The position numbers and the translations under genes are program-made. Under the pieces are notes generated by a model. That model saw only the letters and a list, made by a program, of their open reading frames with translations, was not told where the DNA came from and did no database searches. This document shows, piece after piece, positions 29,632-46,953 of a stretch of DNA of 64,000 nt. This stretch comes from Sinohyriopsis cumingii (lineage: Eukaryota > Mollusca > Bivalvia > Unionida > Unionidae): contig CM068828.1 in assembly GCA_028554795.2 (NCBI GenBank), positions 19,677,936-19,741,935 of the forward strand. Direction: 5' to 3'. Within the stretch, counting starts at the first letter, position 1; each line of letters starts with the position of its first letter.

Positions 29632-29637
29632 CTGGTG
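29632..29637. repeat. Polinton target-site duplication, left copy (CTGGTG)
   Basis: CTGGTG directly precedes the left terminus and is repeated at 47282-47287 directly after the right terminus. Six bases is the characteristic Polinton duplication length. The flanks on both sides read as the same DIRS-like element. Confidence 0.88.
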
Positions 29638-29652
29638 AGTAGTTAAGTGGGA

Positions 29653-29850: not shown

Positions 29851-29856
29851 ATGGGA

Positions 29857-29887
<31 letters not shown>

Positions 29888-29969
29888 TTTTTTTAAAATT
29901 TAAATTTAAATTTAAATTTAGAAAAGGGGTAGGCAATGGAAAGGCTATCTCTTTTCGAGAAATATGGCT

Positions 29970-29985
29970 GGCCCTGAAAAGGGCC
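29970..29985 (-). terminator. Histone-type mRNA 3' stem-loop, left TIR
   Basis: On the minus strand this is GGCCCTTTTCAGGGCC (6-bp stem, TTTC loop), preceded by ACCCAAA and followed by AGCCA. About 15 nt further on is AAAAGAG, complementary to the CUCUUUU core of U7 snRNA. It lies 24 nt downstream of the stop of the outward-facing TIR gene (30010-30243). Confidence 0.88.
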
Positions 29986-30009
29986 TTTGGGTTTATGTTA
30001 ATATTAATA

Positions 30010-30243
30010 TTAACATAGATGGCATCTGTCACATCTTCTTCTTCTTCTTAAACTCCTTCTAACTACCGGTCCATACACAAGTACCCTCTTGAGACATCCT
30101 TGTCTTTCTATGTAAACTCTCCTCATCCATTGACTAGTATCTGTCCTATCAACAACAGTCCACTTGGACCTGACATACATGAGCATGTCCGTCCTAAACA
30201 TCATGGAAGATACAAGGGTGGATGACTCAACTGTGGTCCACAT
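30010..30243 (-). CDS. Outward-facing TIR gene, small arginine-rich protein
   Basis: A 78-codon minus-strand frame whose ATG (30243) lies 13 bp inside the TIR boundary. A clear TATA box, CTATAAATA, sits at 30296-30288 on the same strand about 45 nt upstream. The product is basic, with a run of arginines just before a C-terminal CDRCHLC cluster that might bind a metal. No homologue is recognised. The stop is followed by a histone-type stem-loop. The second copy in the right TIR keeps the frame but not this promoter. DNA binding or a core-protein role is possible but unproven. An alternative frame overlapping the stem-loop is considered a shadow. Confidence 0.6.
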   Translation of the reverse strand: MWTTVESSTLVSSMMFRTDMLMYVRSKWTVVDRTDTSQWMRRVYIERQGCLKRVLVYGPVVRRSLRRRRRCDRCHLC

Positions 30244-30287
30244 CTTGAAGCGACGAGAATAGGTGAATCAATGCAGTGAACTGTGCT

Positions 30288-30296
30288 TATTTATAG
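30288..30296 (-). promoter_or_regulatory. TATA box of the left TIR gene
   Basis: CTATAAATA on the minus strand, 45 nt before the ATG at 30243. It is back to back with the plus-strand TATA at 30409-30415, defining a divergent promoter of about 220 bp. Confidence 0.7.
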
Positions 30297-30408
30297 GTAC
30301 AGGAAGGATTGAAACGGATTGAATTCATTCACCAATCCGAACACGCGTTACAAAATTCAGTCAGCTCGCATCCAATCCGAAGAGAGCAGTCTGTGATGTC
30401 ACGTGGTC

Positions 30409-30415
30409 TATATAG
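30409..30415 (+). promoter_or_regulatory. TATA box of the gene at 30463
   Basis: TATATAG preceded by TGATGTCACGTGG, a CRE/E-box-like sequence. The ATG is 48 nt downstream of it, the same spacing seen at several other genes of the element. Confidence 0.65.
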
Positions 30416-30462
30416 ATTCGTTAGCGCTTGTGTGCAGTCAATCTATGCGACAGTGATTCAAC

Positions 30463-31023
30463 ATGAAGGAAACTCAGAAAACGATCCATTGGGGTGCACC
30501 AGCAGGGGAGACTGCCCAAGGGAACCCGGACTTACTTTCAGAAGAGGTACACTGGGATTTTGTGGATTTTCTTACCTCGCAAGAATTTGTTCCAGAACCT
30601 TCGTTACCTTCTTCATTACCGCAAGTGGAGAATTTTAGACAGAGACAGAAAGAAGAATTGGAGAAATTTATGCAACGACAAAAGGAAGCGGAACAAGCTT
30701 TTCTCCTACAGCAACAGCAACAGCAACAAGAAGAGGTAAGAAAAAAACAACAGCAACAACAGCAAGAAGAAGTAGCAGCAAAGAAACAAGACGGTGAAAA
30801 TCAAACGGCTACGGTACTGTTGGACATTTTAGCGGAGTTAAGAAGTCTGAAACAAATGTATCAGACTTCTTTATCACGACCGAAGAGAATACGACCTTCC
30901 CGAGCTAAACACGCCAACCCTGTGACTAAGCCTGTCGTACCACCCTTAGTGATTTCAACCCAATCATCAGAAGTAGGCCTTGGCCGTGGCAAAGGCTTAA
31001 GGCAGTTAAAGTTGATTGGTTAA
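30463..31023 (+). CDS. Accessory protein with coiled coil and polyglutamine
   Basis: A 186-residue open frame starting at the first ATG after the TATA box at 30409. The N-terminal third is acidic with VHWDFVDFLTSQEF. Residues about 62-105 are a charged Q/E/K-rich helix with two polyglutamine runs, likely a coiled coil. A second helical segment, LLDILAELRSLKQMY, follows, then a basic proline-containing tail. No homologue recognised. The stop is 26 nt before a perfect histone-type stem-loop, followed by a purine element and AATAAA at 31115-31120. It neighbours the divergent TIR gene and resembles the genes at 44444 and 45300 in having a glutamine/glutamate-rich helix and the same 3' cassette. 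Confidence 0.75.
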   Translation: MKETQKTIHWGAPAGETAQGNPDLLSEEVHWDFVDFLTSQEFVPEPSLPSSLPQVENFRQRQKEELEKFMQRQKEAEQAFLLQQQQQQQEEVRKKQQQQQQEEVAAKKQDGENQTATVLLDILAELRSLKQMYQTSLSRPKRIRPSRAKHANPVTKPVVPPLVISTQSSEVGLGRGKGLRQLKLIG

Positions 31024-31048
31024 ACTCACCCCTACACCAAAATAAAAA

Positions 31049-31064
31049 GGCCCTTTTCAGGGCC
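31049..31064 (+). terminator. Histone-type mRNA 3' stem-loop after the gene at 30463
   Basis: GGCCCTTTTCAGGGCC followed by ACCCA (31065-31069), a perfect match to the animal replication-dependent histone 3' end consensus. TCGAAAAGAAATA at 31076-31088 is in the position of the histone downstream element. AATAAA lies at 31115-31120. Confidence 0.92.
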
Positions 31065-31315
31065 ACCCACATTTCTCGAAAAGAAATACAATTTCAATTT
31101 GCCAATAACTCAAAAATAAACCCCACCCATTTTACCCTTATAGTACGTGTCTGTGTATGAGTGCGTGAGTGTAGCTTCTTATTTTAAAATCAAAACTCAA
31201 AGACACTTACCTTATATCATTCATGTATTCTTTTATCCATTTTTTTACAATCCAATTCACAATTCACCACAGAACACTTTAATTAAAAGTTCATTGACTT
31301 CTTCTTTCTCCTTGT

Positions 31316-31776
31316 TTAGTCTCTCTGTTTTTTGAATTTCTTCACCGTTTTTACCTCATTTTCTTCCCTTCTTCTTTTCTTCTCCTGTTTCTTTTTCTTC
31401 ACCAGTCTTCTTTCTTCCTCTTCTTCCTCTGAAGAATCCCTCTCTTCTTCCGAAGAATCCCTCTCTTCTTCTGAAGAATCCTTCTTTTCTTCTGACTCCT
31501 CTTGTTTCTTTTTTGGGCAATCTGGAGACCAATGTCCTTTTTCTTGACAATAATAACAGGTATCTTGACTTTTGTCTCTTTTAGTCCCTGTTTTTGTTCT
31601 TTTTTGACGGTCTGGACACTCTGAAGACCAATGCCCTTTCTTCTGACAGATATAGCAAGTATCTTGACTTTTATCTCGAAAGGAAGGAGAGTAGTCCGTC
31701 GGCTGGTCTGAAGAGAATTTTCAAATACCCCTCGCAAAGCTCTGACGAAACATTCCATCTGGGTAGTCTCTTCCAT
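31316..31776 (-). pseudogene. Two-zinc-knuckle protein, frameshifted
   Basis: A minus-strand gene of about 153 codons if one base lost near 31725-31733 is allowed for. The duplicate 5' copy at 32234 downward keeps the uninterrupted frame, showing which version is original. After the shift the frame holds two CCHC zinc knuckles, CYICQKKGHWSSEC and CYYCQEKGHWSPDC, each preceded by DKSQDT. A serine/glutamate-rich repeat and a lysine-rich tail ending at 31316 follow. I chose the ATG at 31776 because the minus-strand TATA (31833-31840) lies 57 nt upstream; an ATG at 31824 is too close to it. CCHC knuckles usually bind nucleic acid. Such a protein is not part of the standard Polinton set known to me. 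Confidence 0.72.
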
Positions 31777-31832
31777 CGTTGTGCTCGGCTTGAGAGTGAA
31801 ATGAATAGTGAAAGGACAAGACACACACCCTT

Positions 31833-31865
31833 TTTATATACGCTGGTTTGCCAAGACTATAAATT
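31833..31865. promoter_or_regulatory. Compact divergent double TATA promoter, first copy
   Basis: Minus-strand TATATAAA (31840-31833) faces the zinc-knuckle gene and plus-strand TATAAATT (31858-31865) faces the truncated polymerase copy at 31912. The two boxes are only about 18 bp apart. The duplicate is at 32291-32323 and serves the full polymerase gene. Confidence 0.7.
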
Positions 31866-31911
31866 AGTCTGTGGTGTTTAAACTTGAGTCATTTGACGTT
31901 TTGCACTCAAG

Positions 31912-32109
31912 ATGAAACGATCCCATTCATTCGAGAAGAAAGAAGAAGAAGAAAGTAAGAGGCAGAAACGTGATCTATCGCCTCGTACCAGGGCTGAAAT
32001 CTTGGCACAAATTCATGCCAGTGATTTTGAAGAGGACATGAGTGAACCAGAATCCGAACCCTCTAAACCAAGTTCACTTTTGGAAATGTCATCATTGCGG
32101 CTTACGTGA
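31912..32109 (+). pseudogene. Truncated duplicate of the polymerase 5' end
   Basis: The first 55 codons are identical to the start of the polymerase gene at 32370, including its promoter. At 32077 the sequence switches to a 37-bp stretch identical to 35869-35905, deep inside the polymerase gene but in a different reading frame, giving a 65-codon chimaeric frame. The tandem duplication then restarts at 32111. It is a rearrangement by-product, not a gene. Confidence 0.9.
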
Positions 32110-32113
32110 CAGC
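32077..32113 (+). repeat. 37-bp filler copied from the polymerase palm region
   Basis: Identical to 35869-35905, including TTTTGGAAATGTCATCATTG. It sits exactly at the junction between the two copies of the 31654-32077 / 32111-32535 tandem duplication. The right junction shares AGC with the upstream donor, a microhomology. Confidence 0.92.
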
Positions 32114-32282
32114 AAGTATCTTGACTTTTATCTCGAAAGGAAGGAGAGTAGTCCGTCGGCTGGTCTGAAGAGAATTTTCTAATGACCCCTCGCAAAGCTC
32201 TGACGAAACATTCCATCTGGGTAGTCTCTTCCATCGTTGTGCTCGGCTTGAGAGTGAAATGAATAGTGAAAGGACAAGACAC
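32111..32282 (-). pseudogene. Truncated duplicate of the zinc-knuckle gene 5' end
   Basis: Minus-strand copy of the N-terminal part of the zinc-knuckle gene, probable ATG at 32234. It keeps the frame lost in the main copy but is cut after the first cysteine of the first knuckle by the rearrangement junction. It shares the divergent promoter with the polymerase gene. Confidence 0.85.
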
Positions 32283-32290
32283 ACACCCTT

Positions 32291-32323
32291 TTTATATACG
32301 CTGGTTTGCCAAGACTATAAATT
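32291..32323. promoter_or_regulatory. Divergent TATA promoter of the polymerase gene
   Basis: Minus-strand TATATAAA at 32298-32291 and plus-strand TATAAATT at 32316-32323. The polymerase ATG lies 54 nt after the plus-strand box. Confidence 0.72.
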
Positions 32324-32369
32324 AGTCTGTGGTGTTTAAACTTGAGTCATTTGACGTTTTGCACTCAAG

Positions 32370-35300
32370 ATGAAACGATCCCATTCATTCGAGAAGAAAG
32401 AAGAAGAAGAAAGTAAGAGGCAGAAACGTGATCTATCGCCTCGTACCAGGGCTGAAATCTTGGCACAAATTCATGCCAGTGATTTTGAAGAGGACATGAG
32501 TGAACCAGAATCCGAACCCTCTAAACCAAGTTCACCACCCTTAGTCAACCCTGAAAAGTACTATTCCATTCGAGAGACGGAAAAGCGCTCCTCTAGAAAA
32601 TTTAGAACCACGGCTTACACCTACACGGTGAAGTTTAAAGATTTCAAGGCCGACGTACCCTTGGAGAAAGCAGAAGGGTTTATCACCGAGATGTGGGATT
32701 CTTTGCTCACCTCACTCAAGCGACAATGTCAACCCAAAGAAGACGATCGCTTGACACTATCCATAGATCACGACGGTTTGAAATCCCCTGTTTGGATCAA
32801 GTTTAACAGACCCGCAGAACTAACCCCTTCCAAAGTCATGGACAAGATTCAACACGTACAACAATCTAATGACCAGTTTGACATCACCGATGGTAAAGCC
32901 ACACTGAAAATGGCTCACGTCTCTCTTCCTCAAGGGACAGGACGCAAAAAGATGTTATTGGTGGACGACCTTCGCAACACCAAAACAAGTCTTGTCCGAA
33001 TTAACAACCCTCAAGACCAGATGTGCTTAGCCCGTGCCATCGTGGTGGGACGAACCTATGCCAACAAGAACGACACGGTAGAATGGAAAAGAACCTGGGA
33101 GAACATTCGAAAATCAAACCGAACCAAACAACGAAACGAAGCAGAACTCCTGTTGCAACAAGCTGGCCTGTCCAAAGACACACCCTGTGGCATTCCTGAG
33201 ATGCAAAAATTGCAAGATGCCCTAGCTCCACGCTACACCTTGAAAGTGCACCCTCAAGAAATGCGCGGGTCTCTGTTGTTTTGAGGCCAAGACTTTAAGG
33301 ACGGAAAATACATTCATGTCTATCATCACGATGACCATTTCGATACCATTACCAGTATCACTGGATTCCTGGGATACGGTTATTATTGTGAGAAATGTGA
33401 TTATGGTTATAACAATCGAGAGCAACACAAGCATTGTGGATTGAAATGCCCAGGATGTTTGGCCTCTCCACCCTGTCTGAGCGAAGAACCAGTGCCTTGT
33501 TCAACTTGTCTGCGTACGTTTGTCAGCCCTGCCTGTTACCAGCAACATCTGAAGACGCAAGGTTCACAGCAGAAATGTGCTTGTCAACTCTTGAGATTGT
33601 GCCCAACCTGTGGACAAGGCATACTTACCAACAATGCCAAGGCACACGTATGTCAAGGAAAGAAAAAATGTCACATTTGTCACCACATCGTGGACTTGGA
33701 ACACGAATGCTATGTGCAAAAATACCAACCCCCACCAGAGAAAGAGGACGGTCACAAGAAGAAAGGCAATTTCATCTTTTTCGATTTCGAATGCATGCAA
33801 GAGACTGGCATTCACATCCCTAATTTCTGCGTGGCTCATCGAGCGTGCGAGAAGTGCATTCAAGAACCTATCTTCAGTCATTGCCCTCACTGCAGCAAGA
33901 TTCCTGGAGGGCGTGAAAAAATCTTTCGGGGACCAAACACGTTAGCCAATTTTGCCCAATGGGTCTTAGACCCCATCGACAAGACGTGGAGCCAAGAGGA
34001 CATCGAACGTTACGGAGATTGTCATCGTCATGCCACGGTGATGGCTCACAATTTCTCCGGATACGATGGACAGTTTCTTTTGAGGTACTATACGGAACAT
34101 GGCACCGAACGTCCTAAAGTGATTTTGAATGGAGCCAAAATCATTTTCATGCAAGTGGGACAAGTACAGTTTAAAGATTCGATGAGTTACTTGGCCATGC
34201 CTTTGAGCCGAATGCCTAAAACGTTTGGAATGACAGAAATGGCTAAAGGGTACTTTCCACACTTTTTCAATACGGAAGCCAATCAACATGCTGTTCTACC
34301 CCATTTGCCTGAGGCTCACTATTACGACCCCGACAACATGCGTACCGAACAACGAGAAGCTTTCTACGCTTGGTACCAAGCTCACGCCTCGGACCCTTTC
34401 GACTTTCAGGAAGAAATGTTAAAGTATTGTCGTTCCGACGTGGACATTTTACGGCGTTGCTGTGGAAAATTTCGAGAACTGTTCATGGAACACGGAGGGG
34501 TCGATCCTTTGAAAGAAGCTTGCACCATTGCCAAAGCGTGTTCCTTAGTGTACCGCCAACGATTCATGCCTGAAAACACCGTGGCTGTCATCAGTCCTCA
34601 AACGACCCACTATGTCAAGCGTCAATACTCGGTCAAAGCCCTACGTTGGTTACATTACTTGTGCGACAAGGAAGACAAATGGATTCAGCATGCCCGCAAC
34701 GGAGGAGGCGAAAAGACCATCGGAACGTATTCGGTCGATGGCTGGGACTTAGAAAACCCCAAGATCGTGTACGAGTCTAACGGTTGCTTATTTCACGGAT
34801 GTCCCGTCTGTTACCCTGACCGTGGCACTAAAAATCAGTTTTTGCAACGAACCATGGAAGACTTGTACCAGGACACTTGTCAGCGACGCCTAAAGTTAGA
34901 ACAGCAAGGATACCAAGTGGTGGAAATGTGGGAACACGAGTACGATCACCGTTTGAAAACCGATCCCGAGTTTAAACGCCTCATGGAAAGTTACCAGTTC
35001 ATGGACCCGCTGAACCCGAGGGATAGTTTGTACGGAGGAAGGACCAATGCCACCTGTTTGCTGTACCAAGCCGACGAAGAGAAAGGAGAAGAAATCAAAT
35101 ACTTGGACGTGTGTTCGTTGTATCCCTACGTGTGCAAATATTGTCGCTTTCCTGTACGGCACCCGCAATTGTTCACGGAACACATCGACCTGAAAAACAT
35201 TCGACAATACGAAGGCTTGATCAAGTGTAAAGTTTTGCCTCCCACGAACCTATACCATCCCGTCTTACCTCACCATTGTCAAGGCAAACTGATGTTTCCA

Positions 35301-36431
35301 TTGTGCCGTACTTGTGCCGAAACGTGCAACCAGGACCAACCTTGCCATCACAGCCAGGAAGAACGTGCCTTGACGGGAACCTGGGTCAGCGTGGAATTGT
35401 TCAAAGCTCTGGACATGGGATACCAACTGTTAGAAGTGTACGAAATTTGCCACTTTCCCAAGACACAACAGTACCACAAGGGTGACCCTACTCAGAAAGG
35501 CATTTTCGCCAACTACGTGGATGCCTTTTTGAAACTGAAACAAGAAGCCAGCGGCTATCCTTCCTGGTGTCACACTCCCGAAGACCAAATACAATTCAAA
35601 GAGAAATACTACGAACAAGAAGGCATCTCTTTAGACCACATCGAAAAAAACGAAGGCAGGCGATCGTTTGCCAAAGTGATGTTAAATTGCTTGTGGGGTA
35701 AAATGGCACAACGACCGTGTTTACCCAAGACGGAATATTTGACAGAACCTTCCCGCTACTTCCAGATGATTCACGACAAAACCAAATACATGAAACACGT
35801 GGACGTCGTTCGAGAGGATTTGATCTTGGTCAATTACGAAGAAGATCTGGACTTTGTACAAGACGACCCTTTTGGAAATGTCATCATTGCGGCTTACGTG
35901 ACAGCTCATGCTTGCTTAAAATTGTACGAAGCTTTAGAACTGTTAGAAGAACGCGTCCTGTACTTTGACACGGACAGTTGCATTTACATCCATCACCCGA
36001 TTCAACAGCACCCTGACATCGAAGGAGACCGTTTAGGAGCCTGGACAGACGAGCATCCCGACGACAAGATTCTAAGTTTCGTCAGTGGTGGTCCCAAAAA
36101 TTACGGCTACGAATAGCGGGACAAACAAGAAGTGCACACGACGTGCAAAGTGAAAGGACTGACTCTGAATCATCGTACCAGTCGAGTGGTCAACTTTGGG
36201 GTATTGAAAGAAGCCTTGCAATCGAGAGAGGATGGAAACTTTAAAGTGACCACCTATCAACCGAACAAGATTGTACGTTTACCCACTCACCACATCGTCA
36301 GTCGACCCTTGGAAAAAGTCTATCAAATTGTATACCAGAAGCGAGTGCGACTTCCCAATCACTTCACCTTACCGTACGGTCACGTCGGTATTGGTCTGTA
36401 TATGAAAAGGAACCCTAGGCAAGATCGATAG
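32370..36431 (+). pseudogene. Protein-primed DNA polymerase B, two in-frame stops
   Basis: A single frame of 1353 codons interrupted by TGA at codon 305 (33282-33284) and TAG at codon 1249 (36114-36116). Codons 1-470 form the Polinton-type N-terminal region with several cysteine pairs (CEKC, CPGC, CPTC, CHIC). The 3'-5' exonuclease follows: ExoI FFDFEC (about 470), ExoII HNFSGYDGQF, ExoIII YCRSDVDIL. The polymerase domain has DVCSLYP (about 913), KVMLNCLWG and the catalytic FDTDS (about 1200). The C-terminal piece after the TAG carries the normal end of the family. Homologues replicate the element with a terminal protein as primer. All catalytic motifs are intact, so the damage is recent. Readthrough is possible but unsupported. 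Confidence 0.95.
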
Positions 36432-36926
36432 TTCATTGTTCATTGAAGTAACTTACCATGTCGTTGACGAAGAAGAAACCAGATTGGTTAGGAGTCAAAT
36501 GTTGGACATCACCGAGACCAGGGTTTTGAGGCTTGGACACAAGAGGTGGCCCAGTATGCACGAGAGTTATTCAAGGAAAAAAGTTACTTTTCAACCTGTG
36601 TTAGTGACGGTGCCAGAAGAACCCGTCACCCAGGACAGGACTGTCGTGGACAGGCCTGAAAGACCCTTTCGGGAGGACACTTGTGTGACCTTACCCCTAC
36701 TATAGAAATGGTTAGAACTTTACCCAAAACATGTTGTACAGACACTTGTGTTTATTCCACGTTCATGGTTATCATGTGCCTTTTATTCTTGTACTTAAGC
36801 CTTTGGCTTTTATGCATTTTTGTCTTTCGTATTCATGTTTGAAACATTCAATAAACGTGTTCTGAAAAAGTATATAAACTCTTGTCTTGTTTGTTTTTTC
36901 CTGTCACAAGTGACATTTCTCACACC
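36432..36926. other. Polymerase 3' region with AATAAA and ATPase promoter
   Basis: AATAAA at 36850-36855 is a probable polyadenylation signal for the polymerase transcript, followed at once by TATATAAAC at 36871 for the ATPase gene. A frame at 36436-36705 lacks an ATG at its start (a TTG) and matches nothing I know; it may be a decayed gene or chance. The protease common to Polintons is not here. Confidence 0.6.
36871..36879 (+). promoter_or_regulatory. TATA box of the packaging ATPase gene
   Basis: TATATAAAC, 56 nt before the chosen ATG at 36927 and 15 nt after the upstream AATAAA. Confidence 0.7.
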
Positions 36927-37670
36927 ATGGCTACCTCTGCTGTCTCTGCTCCCTCTTCCTCTACTGTCAAAGTCATCGACGAACACTTAGATCGTGCCAG
37001 TTGGGAGGCTTTGTATCTTCGCCATCCCTTTAACATGCTCATTGCTAGACCTAGCGGTTCAGGCAAAACCGAATTCATCAAACGTTTGATCGAACATAAA
37101 CATCATTTGATCGATCAACCCCCTCAATGAATCGTGTGGTGTTACAAAGAGTGGCAATCGGCGTACAGCCTCTTGCGAGAAAGTCAAGGCGATTCCATCG
37201 TGTTTGTGGAAGGCATTCCTAAAGAAGACGACGGCATCGTCTCTGACTCCCGTCTAACCCATTTGGTCATTTTTGACGACATGTTAGGAGAAGACGAAGA
37301 AGAAATTAAACTGTGGTTCACGCGCAAAGGGCATCACCGTAATGCCAGTGTCGTTTACACCACCCAAAATTTGTTTCAACAAAGTAAAGCCCATCGCACC
37401 ATTAGTCTCAATGCGCATTACGTGGTCTTGTTTAAAAGCCCTCAAGATAAATTGCAAGTGCAAGTCTTAGCCAAACAGTTAGGAACGCCTTGGCTGACTC
37501 AGGCGTACGACGATGCCACTCAAACTCCACACGCCTATTTACTCGTCGATTTGAAACCTACGACTCCCGAGGATTTGCGATTTCGTACCCATTTGTTTCA
37601 CAACTGGTGCCAAGACGGAGGGCCTGTCCTGTACACGTCTCCGTCCTCGACTTCATTTCACTCCCCATAA
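36927..37670 (+). pseudogene. FtsK/HerA-type genome-packaging ATPase, one in-frame stop
   Basis: One frame of 247 codons broken by TGA at codon 68 (37128-37130). Walker A is RPSGSGKT at 41-48, preceded by HPFNMLIA. Walker B is LVIFDD at about 113-118. A TTQNLFQQ motif follows, as in sensor regions of this family, then LNAHYVVLFKSP. This matches the A32/FtsK-HerA-type ATPase of Polintons in length and motif order; relatives pump DNA into capsids. The stop falls just before the conserved IVWCY segment, where family members usually have arginine, suggesting CGA changed to TGA. The ATG at 36927 follows the TATA box; an upstream in-frame TTG was not used. Confidence 0.93.
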
Positions 37671-37677
37671 AAAAATC

Positions 37678-37685
37678 TATAAAAA
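37678..37685 (+). promoter_or_regulatory. TATA box of the gene at 37727
   Basis: TATAAAAA, starting 8 nt after the ATPase stop and 49 nt before the ATG at 37727. Confidence 0.7.
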
Positions 37686-37726
37686 CCTCAGACCCTTTTT
37701 TCGTCTGTCTCACTCTCAGTGCGAAC

Positions 37727-38641: not shown

Positions 38642-38645
38642 AAAA
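38637..38645 (+). promoter_or_regulatory. TATA box overlapping the upstream stop codon
   Basis: TATAAAAAA overlaps the TAA of the gene at 37727 (38639-38641) and precedes the ATG at 38702 by 65 nt. Confidence 0.6.
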
Positions 38646-38701
38646 GGCCTGTGACCAAGTCGGGTATCATTGTTTTTTTTGGTGCTCCTGAAGACTCAAA
38701 G

Positions 38702-39088: not shown

Positions 39089-39136
39089 AAAGGCCTCGGA
39101 AGTTCCAAGATCTCAGAATCGACCCCTGACAACCCC

Positions 39137-39775
39137 ATGGAAGGACGAAAACTAGCTTTAGTACCTTACAAATGATGGATGGAATACCATCGGTGGCAAG
39201 AACAACACACCCCGCATTTACCTCCCAATCCCTATTTGAGCGAGATGTCCCAGTTACAACACGAATTGCAGTCCTTGATGGATCGCCAAGATTTGTCTGA
39301 AACAGAAAAATCGCAAAAGTACGGTCAACTCTTGCAACGACTGCAACTCTTTCACCAGAAAGCTTTAGACGAAACAGCTCTACCCACTCTGAAAGATTTT
39401 AAGACCTTGATGAAAAGTCCAGCACCATCACCAGTACCAGTACCAGTACCACCAGTACCCGTGACCAAGACAGAAAAAGGAGAAGAAGAGGAAGGGTTTC
39501 AAACTCCACCAGAAAAAGTACGCAAGTTAACAACACCACCTACCTCCAGAATTGGATGGATTAAAAAGATGATGGCCACCCCTTCTTCCTCACAAGAGAA
39601 AAAGAAAGTGAAGACAGAAGTGAAGACAGAAGTGAAACAAGAACCGATATCCCCCGCTCAGACATCCTTCTCCTCTTCGACACCTATTGCTGGCCGCACA
39701 CGCAAAGCATTGCAATCCAAGAAAATACCCCAAGAGAAAAAGAGTAGCCTCCTCCAAGAGTGGGTGTCTTATTAA
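39137..39775 (+). pseudogene. Conserved Polinton accessory protein (KLALVPYK start), early in-frame stop
   Basis: The first ATG at 39137, 53 nt after a weak TATA-like GATAAAAAGG (39084), encodes RKLALVPYK and then TGA at codon 13 (39173-39175). The same frame continues to 39775 for a 212-residue product. A KM/KLxLVPY start followed by a helical domain of the form L...L..LL....LS..EK...Y...LQR is a recurrent Polinton/adintovirus protein of unsettled function. Here that domain is at about residues 35-80, followed by proline/valine repeats and KTEVK motifs resembling SUMO sites. Initiation at the ATG at 39179 would bypass the stop but lose the conserved start. Confidence 0.75.
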
Positions 39776-39797
39776 CACACCAACCAACACACCAAAA

Positions 39798-40907
39798 ATG
39801 GAAAAAGTCTTAGCCAGCATTTACTACGATCCCTCCCATCCTGCAGGTTACGCAGGAGTTCAAAAATTGTATCGTGCTGCCAAAACGCGACTGAAAAGTC
39901 TCCGTTTACCTCAAGTGCAACGATGGTTACAAGAACAATCTACCTACACTTTACACAAACCCATTCGACACAAGTTTGCCAGAAGTCGCACCCGAGTGGA
40001 AGGCATCGATCATCAATGGCAAGCCGATTTAGCCGATGTCTCTCATTTGGCCAGCTACAATCGTGGCTACAAATATTTGTTTTGTGTCATCGACGTCTTT
40101 TCCAAATTTGCCTGGGTCGTGCCCTTGACTTCCAAATCGAGCAGCGAGTTAGTGCGAGCCCTGCAACGGGTGTTGAAACAAAGCGGTCGTCACCCTCTTC
40201 GATGGCAAACGGACAAAGGCACCGAATTTCTGAACCAAGCTTTCCAAAAAGAATTAAAGAAACGTGACATTCATTTTTTTACCACCGAGAATCCCGAAAC
40301 CAAAGCCAGCATCGTGGAACGTTTTCAACGCACTTTGAAAGAACGCATGTGGAAATATTTTACGCATCACCACACTCTGAAGTACATCGACATCTTACCG
40401 CACCTGGTGCAAGCGTACAACCAAACTTACCATCGAAGCATCGGACGTGCCCCGCAAGACGTGACTCCCGACAACGAAGTGTTGGTGTTTGAGCGTCTGT
40501 TTGGTACGTCCCCGACGAGGGCTGTCCCCGAGAAAAGTGGAATGTTGGCCGTAGGAGATTGGGTGCGCATTGGCAAAACCAAACGCACTTTCGACAAAGG
40601 TTACTTACCTAACTGGACGACCGAATTGTTTCGCGTCACTGGACGAGTGCATGGTCGTCATCCTGCCGTCTATAAATTGGAAGACATGAACGGAGAAGTG
40701 CTCAAAGGAACGTTTTATTTGCCCGAGTTACAACGTGTCACCAAAAAAGAAGACGACGTGTACGACATCGAAAGCATTCTCGAACGCAGAACCCGTAAAG
40801 TGGGCAAACGACGTGTCAAAGAAGTCAAAGTACGTTGGAAAGGATATCCACCCAGTTTCGATTCTTGGATCGATGCTTCGCAAGTCATCGACTATAAAAA
40901 GAAGTGA
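39798..40907 (+). CDS. DDE (retroviral-type) integrase with chromodomain
   Basis: 369 residues. The upstream open extension overlapping the previous gene was rejected in favour of the ATG at 39798. The rve core has DQADL-type D77 (in WQADL), D139 (in WQTDKGTEF) and E174 (in ASIVERFQR), a perfect D,D-35-E arrangement. It ends with a chromodomain at about 315-368 (YDIESIL...VRWKGYP...DSWI). Polinton integrases insert the element and make the 6-bp duplication; chromodomains can direct insertion to marked chromatin. The frame is intact. No TATA is evident upstream, so it may share a transcript with the preceding gene. Confidence 0.97.
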   Translation: MEKVLASIYYDPSHPAGYAGVQKLYRAAKTRLKSLRLPQVQRWLQEQSTYTLHKPIRHKFARSRTRVEGIDHQWQADLADVSHLASYNRGYKYLFCVIDVFSKFAWVVPLTSKSSSELVRALQRVLKQSGRHPLRWQTDKGTEFLNQAFQKELKKRDIHFFTTENPETKASIVERFQRTLKERMWKYFTHHHTLKYIDILPHLVQAYNQTYHRSIGRAPQDVTPDNEVLVFERLFGTSPTRAVPEKSGMLAVGDWVRIGKTKRTFDKGYLPNWTTELFRVTGRVHGRHPAVYKLEDMNGEVLKGTFYLPELQRVTKKEDDVYDIESILERRTRKVGKRRVKEVKVRWKGYPPSFDSWIDASQVIDYKKK

Positions 40908-40912
40908 CCATC

Positions 40913-41332
40913 ATGCCCTTTCACACAGCAGACGCAGCTACGTCGACCACTCCTCCTTCACCTAGTTCTTCTGTGCAAGATTTACAAAAACAACCCTTGT
41001 GGGTGTGGTGTGGAGAACGTGTGCCTAAAACGCAAATCGTCTTTTTCTGCCAAATCTTCATGGTGTATTGTGTCATCGGGGCAGCCATCGCCAATTTGAG
41101 TTTGCAACAAGGAGACAAACAATTGTGGACCATTTTATTGAGCAGTTGCATCGGTTACCTGCTTCCCAATCCCTCCCTGAAATTCACCTCGAACGGGAAC
41201 CCCGGGAACCTTGTGTCCAGTGCCAGTGCCAGTCACCACTTCAACCACAACCAGAACCCCATTTTAGACGGAGACACGCCTCTGACGTCCAGTAATATCC
41301 CCTCGGACAGCCACAGAACTCTGGAATTATGA
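40913..41332 (+). CDS. Two-segment membrane protein of the Polinton capsid cluster
   Basis: 139 residues from the ATG at 40913, five bases after the integrase stop. Two predicted transmembrane segments: about 47-66 (VFFCQIFMVYCVIGAAIANL) and about 76-91 (LWTILLSSCIGYLLPNPSL). The LW..LLS...GYLLPNP motif recurs in Polinton membrane proteins encoded just before the penton gene. The serine/asparagine-rich tail is likely soluble. The stop overlaps the next start (ATGA at 41329-41332), suggesting coupled translation or a shared polycistronic message. Function unknown; a virion-membrane or viroporin-like role is only a guess. Confidence 0.82.
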   Translation: MPFHTADAATSTTPPSPSSSVQDLQKQPLWVWCGERVPKTQIVFFCQIFMVYCVIGAAIANLSLQQGDKQLWTILLSSCIGYLLPNPSLKFTSNGNPGNLVSSASASHHFNHNQNPILDGDTPLTSSNIPSDSHRTLEL

Positions 41333-42258
41333 GTCACCAAAACCAATTTTACTTAACCTTACCCAGTGACAGTTCCATGGAGGTGTTTCCCAAGAACACG
41401 TTGTGCTGTTACACGGCCAAATTACCTCAAGCCATCCAGTTAGATCACGAAGCCCATTGGGAAGTGGCTTTAGTAGAAATGATTCACCCGACCCAAGTCC
41501 TCAATGTCCTTCCCAATCAAAATTTTTTTGATGTGGAAGTTCATGACAAGCAAATGCAACAGTGGATGGATAGCAATGTCAAATATGACAAGAAAACCCG
41601 TACACAAAATCAAAAGTACACCACCTATCACTTGTTCATTCCCCCAGGCTATTATTTTAGTGGTCAACATTTGGTCAGCACCATAACCTCCAGGTTTAAT
41701 GTCATGTTTCTGAAAGCTTTGGAGCATGTCAACAAAAGTGTCACCATGGAGTACCACAAAACAGCTCGTCGCTTCTTGATGAAATTTGAACGGAGTAAAA
41801 TCATGTCCATTTTATTTTGTCCTGAATTGTTTGACATGTTGGGCGGAGTCATGGACATGAGAAAGACCATGATCAAGAAAAATGAATTACCCATCGTTTA
41901 CGACAACGAGTTTTTTAGCAAGTTATTTTGTGCCCCGGTAGAACTGAACCAAGGACTGAATTTGATGTTTGTGTACTCCGATGTGGTGGAGTATAACGTG
42001 GTGGGACACACCTCCGTACCGTTACTGCGTGTCATTCCTTTCAAAGTAGATTCTGCCACGGGCGCTGACGAGGAAGGTGGAAACACTTACCACGTCCACC
42101 GCGAATTTGTACATCCTCACTATTTGCCTGTCAGTAAGTCGTATTTGGACACGGTCAACATTGCTATAAAAGGAGATCTGGGACAAAATATTCCATTCAC
42201 CAAAGGAAAAGTCACGGTGAAACTCCATTTTCGAAAACAGTTCTCTCACGACTCGTAA
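41329..42258 (+). CDS. Penton-type minor capsid protein (single jelly roll)
   Basis: 309 residues, intact. The start FYLTLPSDSSMEVFPKNTL and the segment WEVALVEMIHP match the conserved N terminus of Polinton minor capsid proteins (form: FY.TLPSNSS...P.NT, then WEVGL.E). These proteins form pentamers at capsid vertices by homology with adenovirus-like penton bases. The ATG overlaps the stop of the membrane-protein gene by four bases, and the gene for the PX/pVI-like protein starts seven bases after its stop. Part of an intact capsid module. Confidence 0.93.
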   Translation: MSHQNQFYLTLPSDSSMEVFPKNTLCCYTAKLPQAIQLDHEAHWEVALVEMIHPTQVLNVLPNQNFFDVEVHDKQMQQWMDSNVKYDKKTRTQNQKYTTYHLFIPPGYYFSGQHLVSTITSRFNVMFLKALEHVNKSVTMEYHKTARRFLMKFERSKIMSILFCPELFDMLGGVMDMRKTMIKKNELPIVYDNEFFSKLFCAPVELNQGLNLMFVYSDVVEYNVVGHTSVPLLRVIPFKVDSATGADEEGGNTYHVHREFVHPHYLPVSKSYLDTVNIAIKGDLGQNIPFTKGKVTVKLHFRKQFSHDS

Positions 42259-42265
42259 GTAAGTC

Positions 42266-42682
42266 ATGTATCCAGTGTACCGAGGGGTTGCTCGACAGCG
42301 AGGACACGGCTTAGGAGATATGTTAAAATCGGCCTTTCGTTCGGTGGCCCCGGTGTTGAAACCGATGGTGACACGCAGATTGCACGCCTTGAAAGATGCG
42401 GCACTGACGCAAGGCAAAGAATTTCTCCAAAATGTCATCATCGACAAACAAAACCCTAAAGAAGCCTTCATGAGGGCAGGCAAAAATGTCTTGCTGCAAA
42501 TGGGCAAAGACATTTTAGGCCAACGAGAAACACCTATAAATGCCCTGCACGCTACCGAGTCAGGCATTCAGCAAGGACAAGGCAGAAAGAGACGACGAAG
42601 AAAACACCCTTTCACCAGACTTCAAGCGAGAAAGGCCAAGAAAAGAAGAACCGTTCGAGACTTAGACGTTTTCGATTATTGA
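42266..42682 (+). CDS. PX/pVI-like basic virion protein
   Basis: 138 residues. It starts MYPVYRGVARQRGHGLGDML, a hallmark of Polinton/adintovirus proteins compared with adenovirus pVI or pX. A helical middle region is followed by a strongly basic tail with GRKRRRRK and KAKKRRT. It sits between penton and major capsid genes, as in other Polintons. Family relatives are thought to be packaged and to act in capsid maturation or membrane disruption; for this copy that is inference. The frame is intact. Confidence 0.85.
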   Translation: MYPVYRGVARQRGHGLGDMLKSAFRSVAPVLKPMVTRRLHALKDAALTQGKEFLQNVIIDKQNPKEAFMRAGKNVLLQMGKDILGQRETPINALHATESGIQQGQGRKRRRRKHPFTRLQARKAKKRRTVRDLDVFDY

Positions 42683-42698
42683 GAAAAGAGACACAAAA

Positions 42699-44012
42699 AT
42701 GATGCACCGAGAATCTTGCGCTTGTTCCAAGACGGAAGTGGACCTGTTTGCCATGCCCCCCACGATGATGACGATGCAAGAATCCCAGTGGGTGGAATTT
42801 CACCCCGTCTCCTCACTGACCGATTCCGCTCCCATCGAGTTTGAAATCAAAGGACAGCCCGAAGATTACATCGATCTGAATAGCAGTTACTTGTACCTGA
42901 AAGTCAAAATTCTAGATAAGACTGGAGGTGCTATAGACGATGAAGCAGTAGCTCCCGTCAACAATTTCATGCATTCCTTGTTCAGTGGAGTGGACTTGTA
43001 CTTGAATAACAAACTGGTCAGTAGCAGCATGGATACTTACCCTTATCGTGCCTACCTGGAAAATCTCTTGACATACGGAATAGATGCCAAGAACACTCAT
43101 CTCAATGCCTGTGTGGTATGGGAAGCTGACGAACCTACCAAGTTTGAAATATTGGAAACTGATGAAAAGAAAGACAACAATGATGGATTTGTAGAACGAA
43201 GAAAGAGAATCACGGGAGCCGACACAAGTTTAGAACCGATGGATCGTTTGCATTTGGACATGTGGTTGCAAGAAAAGTATTTGCTGAACGGGGTGGATGT
43301 CCGTCTGAGACTGAATCATAGCAGTGCCGCTTTCCATTTGATGGCTGATAGTGACGGTTACAAAACCAAAATCCTAGAAGCCAGACTCTACGTACGCCGT
43401 GTGGAAGTGTTACCTAAAGTGGGAAACGACATCAGTCAGACGTTGAGCAGAACGACCGCCAAGTATCCCATACGACGCGTGGAAGTGAAAACCTTCACCA
43501 TTCCCAAGGGACAGCGATCCATGATCGAAGATCATCTGTTCCAAGGACAGTTACCCAAACGTTTGATCGTTGGTATCGTCGAGAATACAGCCTTCAACGG
43601 AGCTGCCGAAAAAAATCCTTTCTACTTTCAACACTTTGGCGTGTCCAAAATCGAAGTCAGTCGCGATGGCAAGACCTTGTGTACCCGACCTTTCGAACCT
43701 GACTTTACCAAGAAGAATTACTTGAGATCGTACTTGTCCCTGTACGAAGCCACCGGACAGTTAGGAACCAATACCAGTCACGGTATTACGTACGAGGATT
43801 ATGCAGGAGGCTACGCTTTGTGGGCTTTCGATTTCACTCCAGACCAAGGCAGCGACGAGGGACATTTCCACCCTATAAAATCCGGCCAGATTCGTGTGGA
43901 AATTCAGTTTAAAGACCGAGACCCTGATGAAACGGTGAACGTCATCCTGTATGCAGAATTCGATAATACCATAGAAATCAACAGTTTGAGAGAAGTCATC
44001 CTAGATTACTAG
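42699..44012 (+). CDS. Double-jelly-roll major capsid protein
   Basis: 437 residues, intact. The start has EVDLFAMPPT and QWVEFHPVSSLTDSAPIEFE, the diagnostic N-terminal signature of Polinton major capsid proteins, followed by DYIDLNSSYLYLKVKI and FMHSLFSGVDLYLNNKLV. The second half includes ALWAFDFTPDQGS and ends with VILYAEFDNTIEIN, the usual C-terminal strand. By homology it forms the hexameric capsomers. The gene starts 16 bases after the PX stop, so the four capsid-cluster genes form one compact block. Two AATAAA signals follow within 210 bp. Confidence 0.97.
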   Translation: MMHRESCACSKTEVDLFAMPPTMMTMQESQWVEFHPVSSLTDSAPIEFEIKGQPEDYIDLNSSYLYLKVKILDKTGGAIDDEAVAPVNNFMHSLFSGVDLYLNNKLVSSSMDTYPYRAYLENLLTYGIDAKNTHLNACVVWEADEPTKFEILETDEKKDNNDGFVERRKRITGADTSLEPMDRLHLDMWLQEKYLLNGVDVRLRLNHSSAAFHLMADSDGYKTKILEARLYVRRVEVLPKVGNDISQTLSRTTAKYPIRRVEVKTFTIPKGQRSMIEDHLFQGQLPKRLIVGIVENTAFNGAAEKNPFYFQHFGVSKIEVSRDGKTLCTRPFEPDFTKKNYLRSYLSLYEATGQLGTNTSHGITYEDYAGGYALWAFDFTPDQGSDEGHFHPIKSGQIRVEIQFKDRDPDETVNVILYAEFDNTIEINSLREVILDY

Positions 44013-44370
44013 AAACCATGGAAGACTGTTATCCCTCTTTACCTAGTGGAGAAACTTTTAGTGTTGTATTGTTGTTAAAAAATGTTAGAGTTGTTGTTGT
44101 TTAGTGTTAAGTGATTTTTGAATAAAAAATGTTGTGTTTTGAAAAAATTGTTTGATGCTATATTGTTGGATTATTGTTAAAAATGTTAGAGTTGTTGTTT
44201 AGTGTTAAGTGATTTTTGAATAAAAAATGTTGTGCTTTGAAAAAAATGCCTTTGTCTTTTGTTTAGCTATAAGAATGTTGGATTGATGCTCTTTCATTTC
44301 TTACTATCCCTCTCATGACACTCACTAAACGTTGCGACTCAAAAACCGTGTGGGGGATGTTTTCCTTCAC
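44013..44370. other. Major capsid 3' region with duplicated polyadenylation segment
   Basis: An approximately 100-bp segment containing GTTAAGTGATTTTTGAATAA is present twice in tandem. AATAAA occurs at 44121-44126 and 44219-44224. It marks the 3' end of the capsid block; no histone-type stem-loop is present here. Confidence 0.8.
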
Positions 44371-44392
44371 GTCCGCGCTTTGACTTTAAGAA
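44350..44392 (+). promoter_or_regulatory. Promoter of the gene at 44444, with degenerate TATA
   Basis: GATGTTTTCCTTCACGTCC at about 44356-44374 is also present upstream of the paralogous gene at 45300. Where that gene has TATAAATT (45242), this one has TTTAAGAA (44385), 59 nt before the ATG. Confidence 0.6.
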
Positions 44393-44443
44393 CCGGGTTG
44401 TTTCCAGTCTAACCATCCATTGTCGACTCATCCTCCTAAGAAG

Positions 44444-44809
44444 ATGTGCTCCAAACTAGCTAAACTCAACGAAGCCTACGTGAATTTGCATAGGGTCAGA
44501 CACAGTCTGATACCGAAGCCAGAAGAAATAGAGAATGTGAGAATGTTAAAAATCACTGAAGACCTGATAGAAGAGCTCTTCAGAGAAGAAATGAACAGGG
44601 AAAAAGAAGAATGGACAGAGAAGTACAGACTTCAGAGACAGCAGCAACAGCAGCAACAACAACAACAACAACAGCAGCAGCAACCTGAAGCTGACAGAGG
44701 CTTTGTCGATTGTCGTATCGACACCAAAGAGTTCTTCTTTTCTTTCCGAAGAAGCAGACCTATCGCCAGAAAGTCTATCCTCAGAGGACATCGCATTCTT
44801 AGAAACTAA
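44444..44809 (+). CDS. Accessory protein with polyglutamine, histone-type 3' end
   Basis: 121 residues from the ATG at 44444; an upstream TTG in frame was not used. It starts MCSKLAKLNEAYVNLHRVRH, similar in pattern to the start of the gene at 45300. A charged helix follows, then an uninterrupted run of about 17 glutamines, then FFFSFRRSRPIARKS and a basic end. No homologue recognised. The stop is 29 nt before a histone-type stem-loop, with a purine element and AATAAA (44918-44923) after it. Gene, promoter and 3' cassette together look like one unit duplicated to give the gene at 45300. Confidence 0.72.
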   Translation: MCSKLAKLNEAYVNLHRVRHSLIPKPEEIENVRMLKITEDLIEELFREEMNREKEEWTEKYRLQRQQQQQQQQQQQQQQQPEADRGFVDCRIDTKEFFFSFRRSRPIARKSILRGHRILRN

Positions 44810-44838
44810 AAAAAGAATGCCATAGCAAACAAAAAAAC

Positions 44839-44854
44839 AGCCCTTTTCAGGGCT
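44839..44854 (+). terminator. Histone-type mRNA 3' stem-loop after the gene at 44444
   Basis: AGCCCTTTTCAGGGCT followed by ACCCCA. It is a 6-bp stem with an A-T base pair at the bottom; the conserved second G-C pair and TTTC loop are kept. TAGAAAAGAAATAA follows at the histone downstream element position. Confidence 0.87.
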
Positions 44855-44923
44855 ACCCCAATACTCTAGAAAAGAAATAACGATCGATTTGCCAATGTGT
44901 AGGTAGAGTAGTGTGAAAATAAA

Positions 44924-45209
44924 CACTAACTCTTTTTTAAAAAATATGAGGGTATGTGTTTGTGTGTTAGTAAGTGCTTAAGTAAGTTGGTATGAATAGT
45001 AGATTAAAATCATGTTTTTTTGGTGTTTGAGGTGTATATTTGGAGTTAGATTGGATTGCTTTGCGTATGTGGATAGTCTAATGAAGTGATTTATAAAAAA
45101 TTTTAAAATAGTGATGGGTAGCATAAAAAAGTGAGTGAGTGTTTCTTTTAGGTCCGCGCGTTGTTGTTTTTGGTCATGATGTAGGTAACATCAATTTTAT
45201 GTTTTTTAG
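44924..45209. other. Spacer between paralogous accessory genes
   Basis: AT- and TG-rich sequence with a short TATGTGTTTGTGTGTTAG stretch related to the array at 45885-46689. No gene. Confidence 0.6.
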
Positions 45210-45241
45210 GGGGATGTTTTCCTTCACGTCCTCGCATTCAC

Positions 45242-45249
45242 TATAAATT
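45242..45249 (+). promoter_or_regulatory. TATA box of the gene at 45300
   Basis: TATAAATT, 58 nt before the ATG, preceded by the shared GATGTTTTCCTTCACGTCC element at about 45212-45230. Confidence 0.72.
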
Positions 45250-45299
45250 GAAACTCGCTGGGCAGTCTAGCTACCCTTGTTGATTGATCAACACCAAAA

Positions 45300-45686
45300 A
45301 TGAACACGAGACTGTCTAAACTGTTGGAACTTCATGTGCATCTGGAATATGCCAGGCGCCTGTTGAATGAACTGGCCGCGGAAGCCATTGTGGAGGAGGG
45401 AAGGATAAGAGAGGAGGAGGAAAGAAGAAAAAAAGAAGAGGAGGAGAGAAGATATAAAGAAGAAGAAGAAGAGGAAAGAAGATACAAAGAGGAGGAGAGA
45501 AGAAACAAAGAAGAGGAGGAGGAGAAGGAAAAGAAGAGAAGAAGAATAAATTTCAGAATCCCAGAGAGCGAAAATTGGGATTCTGAAGCGACATATCCTG
45601 CCTCTGCTCTCTCCCCCAAAAAAGTAAAAAGTAACTGGGGGATAAGATGTGTATGTGGCGCCAGGCCTGGAAGGTGCCACGATTAA
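45300..45686 (+). CDS. Glutamate/arginine-rich coiled-coil accessory protein, histone-type 3' end
   Basis: 128 residues. It starts MNTRLSKLLELHVHLEYARR, paralogous in pattern to the gene at 44444. Residues about 35-82 are an almost pure E/R/K helix with repeats of the form ERRYKEEEE, predicted to be a long charged single helix or coiled coil. The tail includes NFRIPESENWDSEA and CVCGARPGRCHD. No homologue recognised. A histone-type stem-loop begins 29 nt after the stop. It lies outside the core cluster, next to the right terminal region. Confidence 0.72.
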   Translation: MNTRLSKLLELHVHLEYARRLLNELAAEAIVEEGRIREEEERRKKEEEERRYKEEEEEERRYKEEERRNKEEEEEKEKKRRRINFRIPESENWDSEATYPASALSPKKVKSNWGIRCVCGARPGRCHD

Positions 45687-45714
45687 CCAGGTGTCCATGA
45701 AGTTCCAAAAAAAC

Positions 45715-45730
45715 AGCCCTTTTCAGGGCT
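45715..45730 (+). terminator. Histone-type mRNA 3' stem-loop after the gene at 45300
   Basis: AGCCCTTTTCAGGGCT followed by ACCCA (45731-45735), then TAGAAAAGAAATAA at the downstream-element position. The distal AATAAA seen after the gene at 44444 is changed to AATATAAA here. Confidence 0.9.
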
Positions 45731-45884
45731 ACCCAATACTCTAGAAAAGAAATAACCATCAATTTGCCAATGTGTAGGTAGAGTAGTGTGAATATAAACA
45801 CTAACTCTTTTCTAAGATAGTGTGAGGGTATGTGTTTGTGTGTTGGTGCTTGTAAGAGCTAAGGTATGTTTGTGTGAATAGTAG

Positions 45885-46689
45885 ATTATGGGTTTCTTTA
45901 TTGTTTCTTAGCGTATGTGGAGAGTATAGTTTGGGTTTTGTAACCGCTAACGTACGATTGTGTGGATAGTAGATTATGGATTTTGTTTATTGTTTCTTAG
46001 CGTATGTGGAGAGTATAGTTTGGGTTTTGTAACCGCTCACGTACGATTGTGTGGATAGTAGATTATGGATTTGTTTATTGTTTCTTAGCGTATGTGTTTG
46101 TGTGTTTGTGTTTGTGTGTTTGTGTTTGTACCCGCTCACGTAAGATTGTGTGGATAGTAGATTATGGATTTGTTTATCGTTTCTTAGCGTATGTGTTTGT
46201 GTGTTTGTGTTTGTGTGTTTGTGTTTGTACCCGCTCACGTAAGATTGTGTGGATAGTAGATTATGGATTTGTTTATTGTTTCTTAGCGTATGTGTTTGTG
46301 TATTTGTGTTTGTGTGTTTGTGTTTGTGTGTTTGTGTTTGTGTGTTTGTGTTTGTACCCGCTCACGTACGATTGTGTGGATAGTAGATTATGGATTTGTT
46401 TATTGTTTCTTAGCGTATGTGTTTGTGTGTTTGTGTTTGTGTGTTTGTGTTTGTACCCGCTCACGTAAGATTGTGTGGATAGTAGATTATGGATTTGTTT
46501 ATTGTTTCTTAGCGTATGTGTTTGTGTATTTGTGTTTGTGTGTTTGTGTTTGTGTGTTTGTGTTTGTACCCGCTCACATACGATTGTGTGGATAGTAGAT
46601 TATGGATTTGTTTATCGTTTCTTAGCGTATGTGTTTGTGTATTTGTGTTTGTGTGTTTGTGTTTGTGTGTTTGTGTTTGTACCCGCTCA
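45885..46689. repeat. TG-rich tandem array abutting the right TIR
   Basis: About nine units sharing CGCTCACGTACGATTGTGTG and TAGATTATGGATTTGTTTAT. The first two carry a GTGGAGAGTATAG segment, and later ones a variable number of TTTGTGTGTTTGTG repeats. The array stops exactly where the right TIR begins. Cysteine/valine-rich frames across it are artefacts. Confidence 0.92.
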
Positions 46690-46718
46690 TTGAGTCATCC
46701 ACCCTTGTGTCTTCCATG

Positions 46719-46913
46719 ATGTTTAGGACGGACATGCTCATGTATGTCAGGTCCAAGTGGACTGTTGTTGATAGGACAGATACTAGTCAATGGATGAGGA
46801 GAGTTTACATAGAAAGACAAGGATGTCTCAAGAGGGTACTTGTGTATGGACCGGTAGTTAGAAGGAGTTTAAGAAGAAGAAGAAGAAGATGTGACAGATG
46901 CCATCTATGTTAA
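46719..46913 (+). CDS. Outward-facing TIR gene, right copy, without its own promoter
   Basis: Same small arginine-rich product as 30010-30243, with one extra arginine. The TIR boundary removes the left copy's ATG and TATA box. The first usable ATG within the TIR is at 46719; an open extension leads back into the TG-rich array and is probably not real coding sequence. The histone-type stem-loop is retained 25 nt after the stop. Expression of this copy would need a promoter in or beyond the array. Confidence 0.5.
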   Translation: MFRTDMLMYVRSKWTVVDRTDTSQWMRRVYIERQGCLKRVLVYGPVVRRSLRRRRRRCDRCHLC

Positions 46914-46937
46914 TATTAATATTAACATAAACCCAAA

Positions 46938-46953
46938 GGCCCTTTTCAGGGCC
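46938..46953 (+). terminator. Histone-type mRNA 3' stem-loop, right TIR
   Basis: GGCCCTTTTCAGGGCC, preceded by ACCCAAA and followed by AGCCA. AAAAGAG at 46968-46974 is the best U7-complementary downstream element of the set. Confidence 0.9.

Follow-up and report, generated by a model that had tools for sequence, protein, structure and literature searches.

The closest described counterpart of the signals reported here is the 3' end of the replication-dependent histone genes of animals (family RF00032 in Rfam), on which SLBP, the U7 small nuclear ribonucleoprotein (snRNP) and CPSF73 act. In mammals, according to PMC7026596, the U7 sequence CUCUUU pairs with the core AAAGAG of the histone downstream element (HDE), and CPSF73 cuts between the stem-loop and the HDE. 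PMC6303110 treats histone mRNA as the sole known metazoan mRNA of such kind, and PMC9756948 adds that some histone genes (human H2AC18, H4) have two 3'-end signals, the hairpin and AAUAAA. Here we describe signals of this type in a Polinton of 17.6 kb (29638..47281, without assigned strand), situated in 64,000 nucleotides from the bivalve Sinohyriopsis cumingii (contig CM068828.1, positions 19,677,936 to 19,741,935 of the forward strand). This whole stretch is referred to as the window, and coordinates are counted from its first letter. With Polinton/Maverick elements and adintoviruses the element shares terminal inverted repeats (TIRs), a 6-bp target-site duplication, polymerase B, an rve integrase with chromodomain and a capsid-like gene; unlike those described, it carries histone-type 3' ends on its accessory genes. 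No report of such ends in Polintons, adintoviruses or transposons was found among the titles and abstract openings in the partial listings that our literature search covered, and the term "stem-loop" was absent by term count from the main text of two surveys (PMC11071296, PMC11071308).

Stem-loops behind the accessory genes

The whole 64-kb window was scanned on both strands with every Rfam family at E<=10. RF00032, the histone 3' untranslated region stem-loop, gave exactly five matches, each over the whole model of 46 positions including its downstream purine part, and three of the five reached the curated cut-off of 34 bits. These are the same five perfect 6-bp stems with TTTC loop that an initial annotation, made from the letters alone, had listed with positions and strands. 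The highest score, 41.2 bits (E 9.6e-9; 31044..31088, plus strand), belongs to the stem-loop 31049-31064 behind acc1 (186 amino acids, 30463..31023, plus), which is followed by ACCCA and the HDE GAAAAGAAA. The gene tirL (30010..30243, minus), a terminal accessory gene for a basic protein of 77 amino acids whose 3' part lies within the TIR, has its stem-loop at 29970-29985, with AGCCA and the HDE GAAAAGAGA (29945..29990, minus; 35.6 bits, E 1.2e-6). The copy of it in the right TIR, stem-loop 46938-46953 with its HDE (46933..46978, plus), likewise has AGCCA and scores the same (35.6 bits, E 1.2e-6). At the other end of the element, acc2 (121 amino acids, 44444..44809, plus) and acc3 (128 amino acids, 45300..45686, plus) are followed by stem-loops 44839-44854 (44834..44878, plus; 29.3 bits, E 2.7e-4) and 45715-45730 (45710..45755, plus; 31.0 bits, E 6.4e-5), both with an A-T outer pair and the HDE AGAAAAGAAA, the former flanked by ACCCCA and the latter by ACCCA.

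All five hairpins stand in the sense orientation, 24, 25, 29, 28 and 24 nt past a stop codon in coordinate order, and the purine run begins at position 13 or 14 past the stem at every site, which agrees with the 24-29 nt and about 12-15 nt proposed initially, as do the 3' flanks. Chance hairpins were considered and rejected. The element holds 26 perfect hairpins of 6 bp and 4 nt, and at least four G or C in the arm occur in these five only; perfect 6-bp stems with a TTTC loop number five, against a mean of 0.082 and a maximum of 2 in 500 dinucleotide shuffles. The covariance scores, on which the initial annotation had staked its proposal beforehand, are far above chance. At the outer position of the stem, acc1 and tirL have G-C where acc2 and acc3 have A-T, a change that preserves pairing. 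The 3' regions of the four genes align throughout: hairpin, ACC (AGC in tirL), CTCGAAAAGA or CTAGAAAAGA, then TTGCC. The last motif, about 15-20 nt past the HDE, is common to all four element genes and the H2A gene of the host; we know of no role for TTGCC in histone 3' ends.

Each site had been taken for the 3' end of a gene, and this holds for four of them. The right TIR repeats the 3' part of tirL only, and the ATG (30243) and the promoter lie just outside the repeat, so that four units have an upstream region of their own and the fifth site is a duplicated 3' end. Since two of the five copies lie in TIRs and all of them in the terminal accessory regions, the hairpins might be thought to function at the DNA level, for instance in terminal-protein replication or in packaging. 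We regard this as extremely improbable, because all five are sense-oriented at 24-29 nt past a stop, the internal single copies included, and because the module extends to the HDE.

The intergenic region of about 220 bp across which tirL and acc1 diverge has TATA-like boxes on both sides, that of tirL being CCTATAAATAAG; in acc3 a TATA box precedes the ATG by about 58 nt, and acc2 has a weak TATA-like box only (CTTTAAG). The four proteins showed no mutual similarity at E<=10 with low complexity masked, though the 3' module is common to all. The hairpin genes do not encode histones: no histone family was found in acc1, acc2, acc3 or the TIR protein in Pfam at E<=0.01. For the acc1 product the prediction is one long helix, in which a basic stretch is conserved (mean pLDDT 69.6). 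Three weak matches of low-complexity or coiled character were not used, namely acc1 to AIP3 (0.0078, under its cut-off), acc2 to phrog_332 (7.3e-5) and the acc1 family to mL100 (0.0014).

Host histone genes and further copies of the signal

The replication-dependent histone genes of the host form tandem arrays with a repeat unit of about 8.27-8.29 kb, which occur on many small contigs (among the loci are L061, at G000:C1043:27000-36500, and L062). One repeat, in L061, encodes H4, H3, H1, H2A and H2B, named from their translations, and all five genes match RF00032 with 35.0-39.4 bits. The H2B hairpin GGCCCTTTTCAGGGCC is identical to those of acc1 and tirL in 16 of 16 bases; H3 and H4 have the same stem with the loop TTTT, H2A the same stem with TTTA, and the H1 hairpin GGTCCTTTTCAGGACC differs by a pair-preserving change. 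The purine element follows at the same spacing in both sets: GAAAAG starts at position 14 past the stem in H4, H3 and H2B and at 15 in H2A, as compared with 14 in tirL, acc1 and acc3 and 15 in acc2. The host spacing is taken from these four genes, as H1 fell outside the pattern of the script; the 3' sequence of H1 contains CTAGAAAAGA too. The distance from stop to stem is 27-35 nt in four host genes and 24-29 nt in the element. The element genes resemble histone genes in the six-pair stem, the TTTC loop, the A-rich 5' flank, the ACC 3' flank (acc1 to acc3), the purine element from position 13-15 and the short single frame, and they depart from them in being accessory genes of a mobile element with AATAAA near some of them. 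Compared with the host they also have ACCCA in place of ACACA, AGCCA after the TIR copies, and an outer A-T pair in acc2 and acc3.

Transcripts of mimiviruses and virophages end at hairpins, and Polintons are related to virophages. Hairpins close past the stop codons of virus-like genes could accordingly be virus-type transcription-end signals, read by machinery other than SLBP and U7. We consider this very unlikely, as the sequence and not just the shape is histone-like, with the A-rich 5' flank, ACC past most stems and a purine element at histone spacing, and as H2B of the host has the identical 16-mer. Besides, hairpins of this kind are absent from all other genes of the element, and a Pfam scan of 18 of its open frames at E<=0.01 detected no RNA polymerase or SLBP domain. 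The comparison with the host, which we regard as decisive, supports the interpretation by SLBP and U7 put forward initially.

RF00032 was further run over the host genome (2.9 Gb), where 75 of 589,472 first-look candidates were scored, and the counts are lower bounds. All 75 loci exceeded the cut-off and lay dispersed on many contigs. One of 14 control genomes, a bacterium, gave a match, and that below the cut-off. The 70 highest-scoring loci were examined. TIR sequence was present in 70 of 70, even when the hairpin/HDE stretch was excluded from the query, an accessory gene in 67 of 70, and a histone gene in none. Matches to the histone hairpin of Rfam in animal genomes can be transposon genes, as the 70 examined loci (of 75 scored) all lay in Polinton sequence. 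tirL and acc1 were divergent, with 208-251 nt between their starts, in 47 of the 48 loci with both genes; in the 48th, L095, they point apart too, and acc1 aligns only from residue 29.

To limit circular reasoning, retention was judged on gene copies whose own hairpin had not picked the locus, a hairpin being counted when at least 13 of 16 bases agreed. It was kept in 65 of 67 such unselected copies (acc1 24/26, acc3 18/18, tirL 23/23); acc2 occurred in none of the examined loci. Six standard pairs were found in 55 of the 65 hairpins and a GAAAAG-like purine element in 62. In the two acc1 copies that have no hairpin (L023, L037), the acc1 match ends early, at residues 144 and 136 of 186. Two tirL-type hairpins within about 1.3 kb were seen in each of L023 and L026, which suggests nested or shortened elements. 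In an alignment of acc1 3' ends (n=15, the window copy and 14 unselected ones, among them L023, whose lack of a real hairpin depresses the values), mean column identity reached 0.93 for the hairpin, 0.92 for the 5 nt behind it and 0.96 for the HDE, as against 0.87 before the hairpin, 0.83 between and after these parts and 0.72 further out.

These figures bear on the view that the hairpins are passive leftovers, host histone 3' ends captured once and copied along with no present role, the RNA ends being made by AATAAA. It draws on the AATAAA that follows the stem after 51 nt in acc1 and after 64 nt in acc2, and on a likeness such as a captured end would have: the 45 nt past GAAAAG in acc3 resemble host H2A with a score reached by 0 of 500 shuffles (20 comparisons were made; 11 of 500 for acc1 and for acc2 each, 191 of 500 for tirL). 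The likeness does no more than hint at capture from an H2A-like gene. However, conservation in the acc1 3' region is highest in hairpin and HDE, the hairpin is kept in nearly all unselected copies, its distance from four stops is similar and its one outer-pair change preserves pairing, and tirL has no AATAAA downstream inside the element. Leftovers with no role are in our judgement unlikely.

The initial annotation had also made its proposal depend on the presence of the signal in related Polintons. Besides the many copies in the same genome, two metagenomic relatives appear to carry it, as judged from read-through proteins. Homologues of acc1 (20) and tirL (2) were found, all on metagenome-sized contigs of 0.5-2.3 kb. 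In two acc1 homologues, P0133 and P0142, the frame runs on past the usual stop, and their tails match the acc1 hairpin and HDE in register, with 48 of 57 and 47 of 57 compatible bases and a maximum of 39 in 1000 shuffles each. The same tails gave 46 and 44 against tirL and 43 and 42 against acc3, above the shuffles, and 40 and 38 against acc2, at the edge of or within chance. At the other end of the gene, the 5' extensions of P0126 (48/63, shuffled maximum 42) and P0141 (63/84, shuffled maximum 55; 500 shuffles each) agree in register with the region of the TATA box and the start. Another metagenomic protein, P0140, has the acc1 start joined to an apparent N-terminal part of the polymerase, as from an internally deleted element.

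Scans of viral_contigs for DNA relatives of the Polinton gave no useful one. A hairpin-pattern match in IMG/VR (L001) was taken as chance, being GC-rich, phage-coding-like DNA with no RF00032 match at the cut-off. Polinton polymerase and integrase genes were met on a contig of a Nocardioides bin (L007), and the same with a capsid gene on one of a Bacteroidia bin (L008); their place among bacteria is probably contamination. Neither had an RF00032 match, and as both are fragments without terminal genes this says nothing on the module.

Probable histone-type processing of accessory transcripts

The 3' signal is nearly identical to that of the host itself, which suggests that the element borrows the histone-making route for four small genes. 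The HDE of the TIR contains AAAGAG, the core with which mammalian U7 pairs, and the other HDEs of the element have AAAAGAAA. The most economical reading is therefore that SLBP and U7 of the host would act on them as on H2B. We hold it highly probable, from the sequence comparisons given above, that the accessory genes use histone-type 3' processing by SLBP and U7, instead of or besides polyadenylation. tirL, acc1, acc2 and acc3 are built like replication-dependent histone genes, short, in a single frame, with TATA-like boxes and with a stem-loop and U7-type element. From the known pathway we infer that SLBP of the host would bind the hairpin of the accessory transcripts and the U7 snRNP would pair with GAAAAGA, upon which CPSF73 would cut between hairpin and HDE. 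The products would be capped mRNAs ending just past the stem, with no poly(A), and their translation via SLBP would favour them in S phase.

The core genes polymerase, integrase and capsid, which lack the signal, probably use ordinary AATAAA sites. Their lack of the hairpin had been claimed before and stands, as no RF00032 match occurred at core genes in the scan of the window, and AATAAA does follow the polymerase (36850, which is 419 nt after the last polymerase-like frame) and the capsid gene (44121, 44219). AATAAA is not restricted to core genes: it occurs beside hairpin genes too, at 31041, 31115 and 44918. The one near acc1 and that near acc2 may allow a second, polyadenylated form. In having hairpin and poly(A) signal close together acc1 and acc2 resemble the dual-signal histone genes mentioned above, and they differ in that AATAAA of the element lies mostly downstream of the HDE, with none downstream of tirL.

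Several observations weigh against histone-type processing or narrow its basis. The acc3 and acc2 hairpins remain under the RF00032 cut-off. acc2 and acc3 match each other over 38 nt upstream (89%) and over 109 nt of the 3' region (85%); they may have arisen by duplication and then diverged, in which case the independent cases may be three. AATAAA lies 51 nt (acc1) and 64 nt (acc2) past the stem, and another closely precedes the acc1 stem, so that polyadenylation of the ordinary kind may occur too. Host stems are followed by ACACA, ACAAA or ATACA (ACTTT in H1) and those of the element by ACCCA, ACCCCA or AGCCA, which means that the element is no simple copy of the present histone array. The loci in the host genome were chosen by high hairpin score, and their other genes thus come from motif-rich elements. 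A standard pair was lost in 10 of the 65 unselected hairpins, in two of them at pair 2; this G-C pair was invariant in the first 29 unselected hairpins, and the two of the larger set of 65 have A there. Judging from the codons of the metagenomic relatives, the closing base is altered in P0133 and the outer base in P0142, so that neither has a certain perfect stem. Searches with RF00066 (U7) and PF15247 (SLBP) gave no match in the host genome, but none in the 14 control genomes either, and are uninformative. Finally, the window copy, with its broken polymerase, may be inactive now.

We lean towards a wider reading, with less assurance than towards the processing itself. A large Polinton family of an animal would have put a whole gene class under histone-type control, with TATA boxes, a divergent pair whose common promoter spans 208-251 bp, intron-free genes and 3' ends of the SLBP/U7 type. 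Outside the histones, its transcripts would be the first stem-loop mRNAs without poly(A) known from animals; they would be timed to S phase, and their processing may take place in histone locus bodies. The module would probably stem from an H2A-like histone gene and have spread to several genes thereafter. If this is true, a mobile element family with such ends on genes unrelated to histones would break the histone-only rule and show a parasite using the S-phase mRNA pathway, and it would explain in a simple manner how Polintons could tie the expression of accessory genes to the DNA replication of the host.

Structure and core genes of the element

The assignment to Polinton/Maverick follows from both the ends and the gene content. 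The TIRs, about 0.59 kb long and about 98-99% identical, were placed by a repeat finder at 29637-30230 and 46690-47282, and the element is bordered by the 6-bp target-site duplication CTGGTG at 29632..29637 and 47282..47287 (both plus strand). Polymerase B was recognized by PF03175, and the integrase by PF00665 and PF00385. The polymerase region (32370..36431, plus), which has no histone-type hairpin, consists of three separate open frames, 32370-33284, 33441-36116 and 36132-36431. The middle frame matches PF03175 with E 5.7e-42, and we assign the outer ones to the polymerase by their resemblance to alignment A1 and protein P0001. Because the polymerase is broken into three open frames, the window copy is probably not autonomous at present. 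The best polymerase match was a metagenome protein, 90% identical over 61% of the query; unnamed proteins and proteins of marine invertebrates, oysters among them, came next at about 45-50%. In 31654-32475, immediately before the polymerase, a stretch of about 0.36 kb is directly repeated after 457-458 bp with 96-99% identity.

The rve integrase with chromodomain (39687..40907, plus; PF00665 3.4e-14, PF00385 1.8e-7) has no hairpin, nor has the gene at 42699..44012 (plus), whose product is a probable major capsid protein. The latter has a 35% identical relative in L008, beside polymerase and integrase genes, and its low-confidence structure model matches viral capsid proteins in Foldseek, the model being too weak for a firm claim. 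The candidate packaging ATPase at 37134-37670 had no match in Pfam, PHROG or NCBIfam. Between acc3 and the right TIR, at 45890-46690, there is a minisatellite with units of about 89-127 bp, which adjoins the truncated tirL copy.

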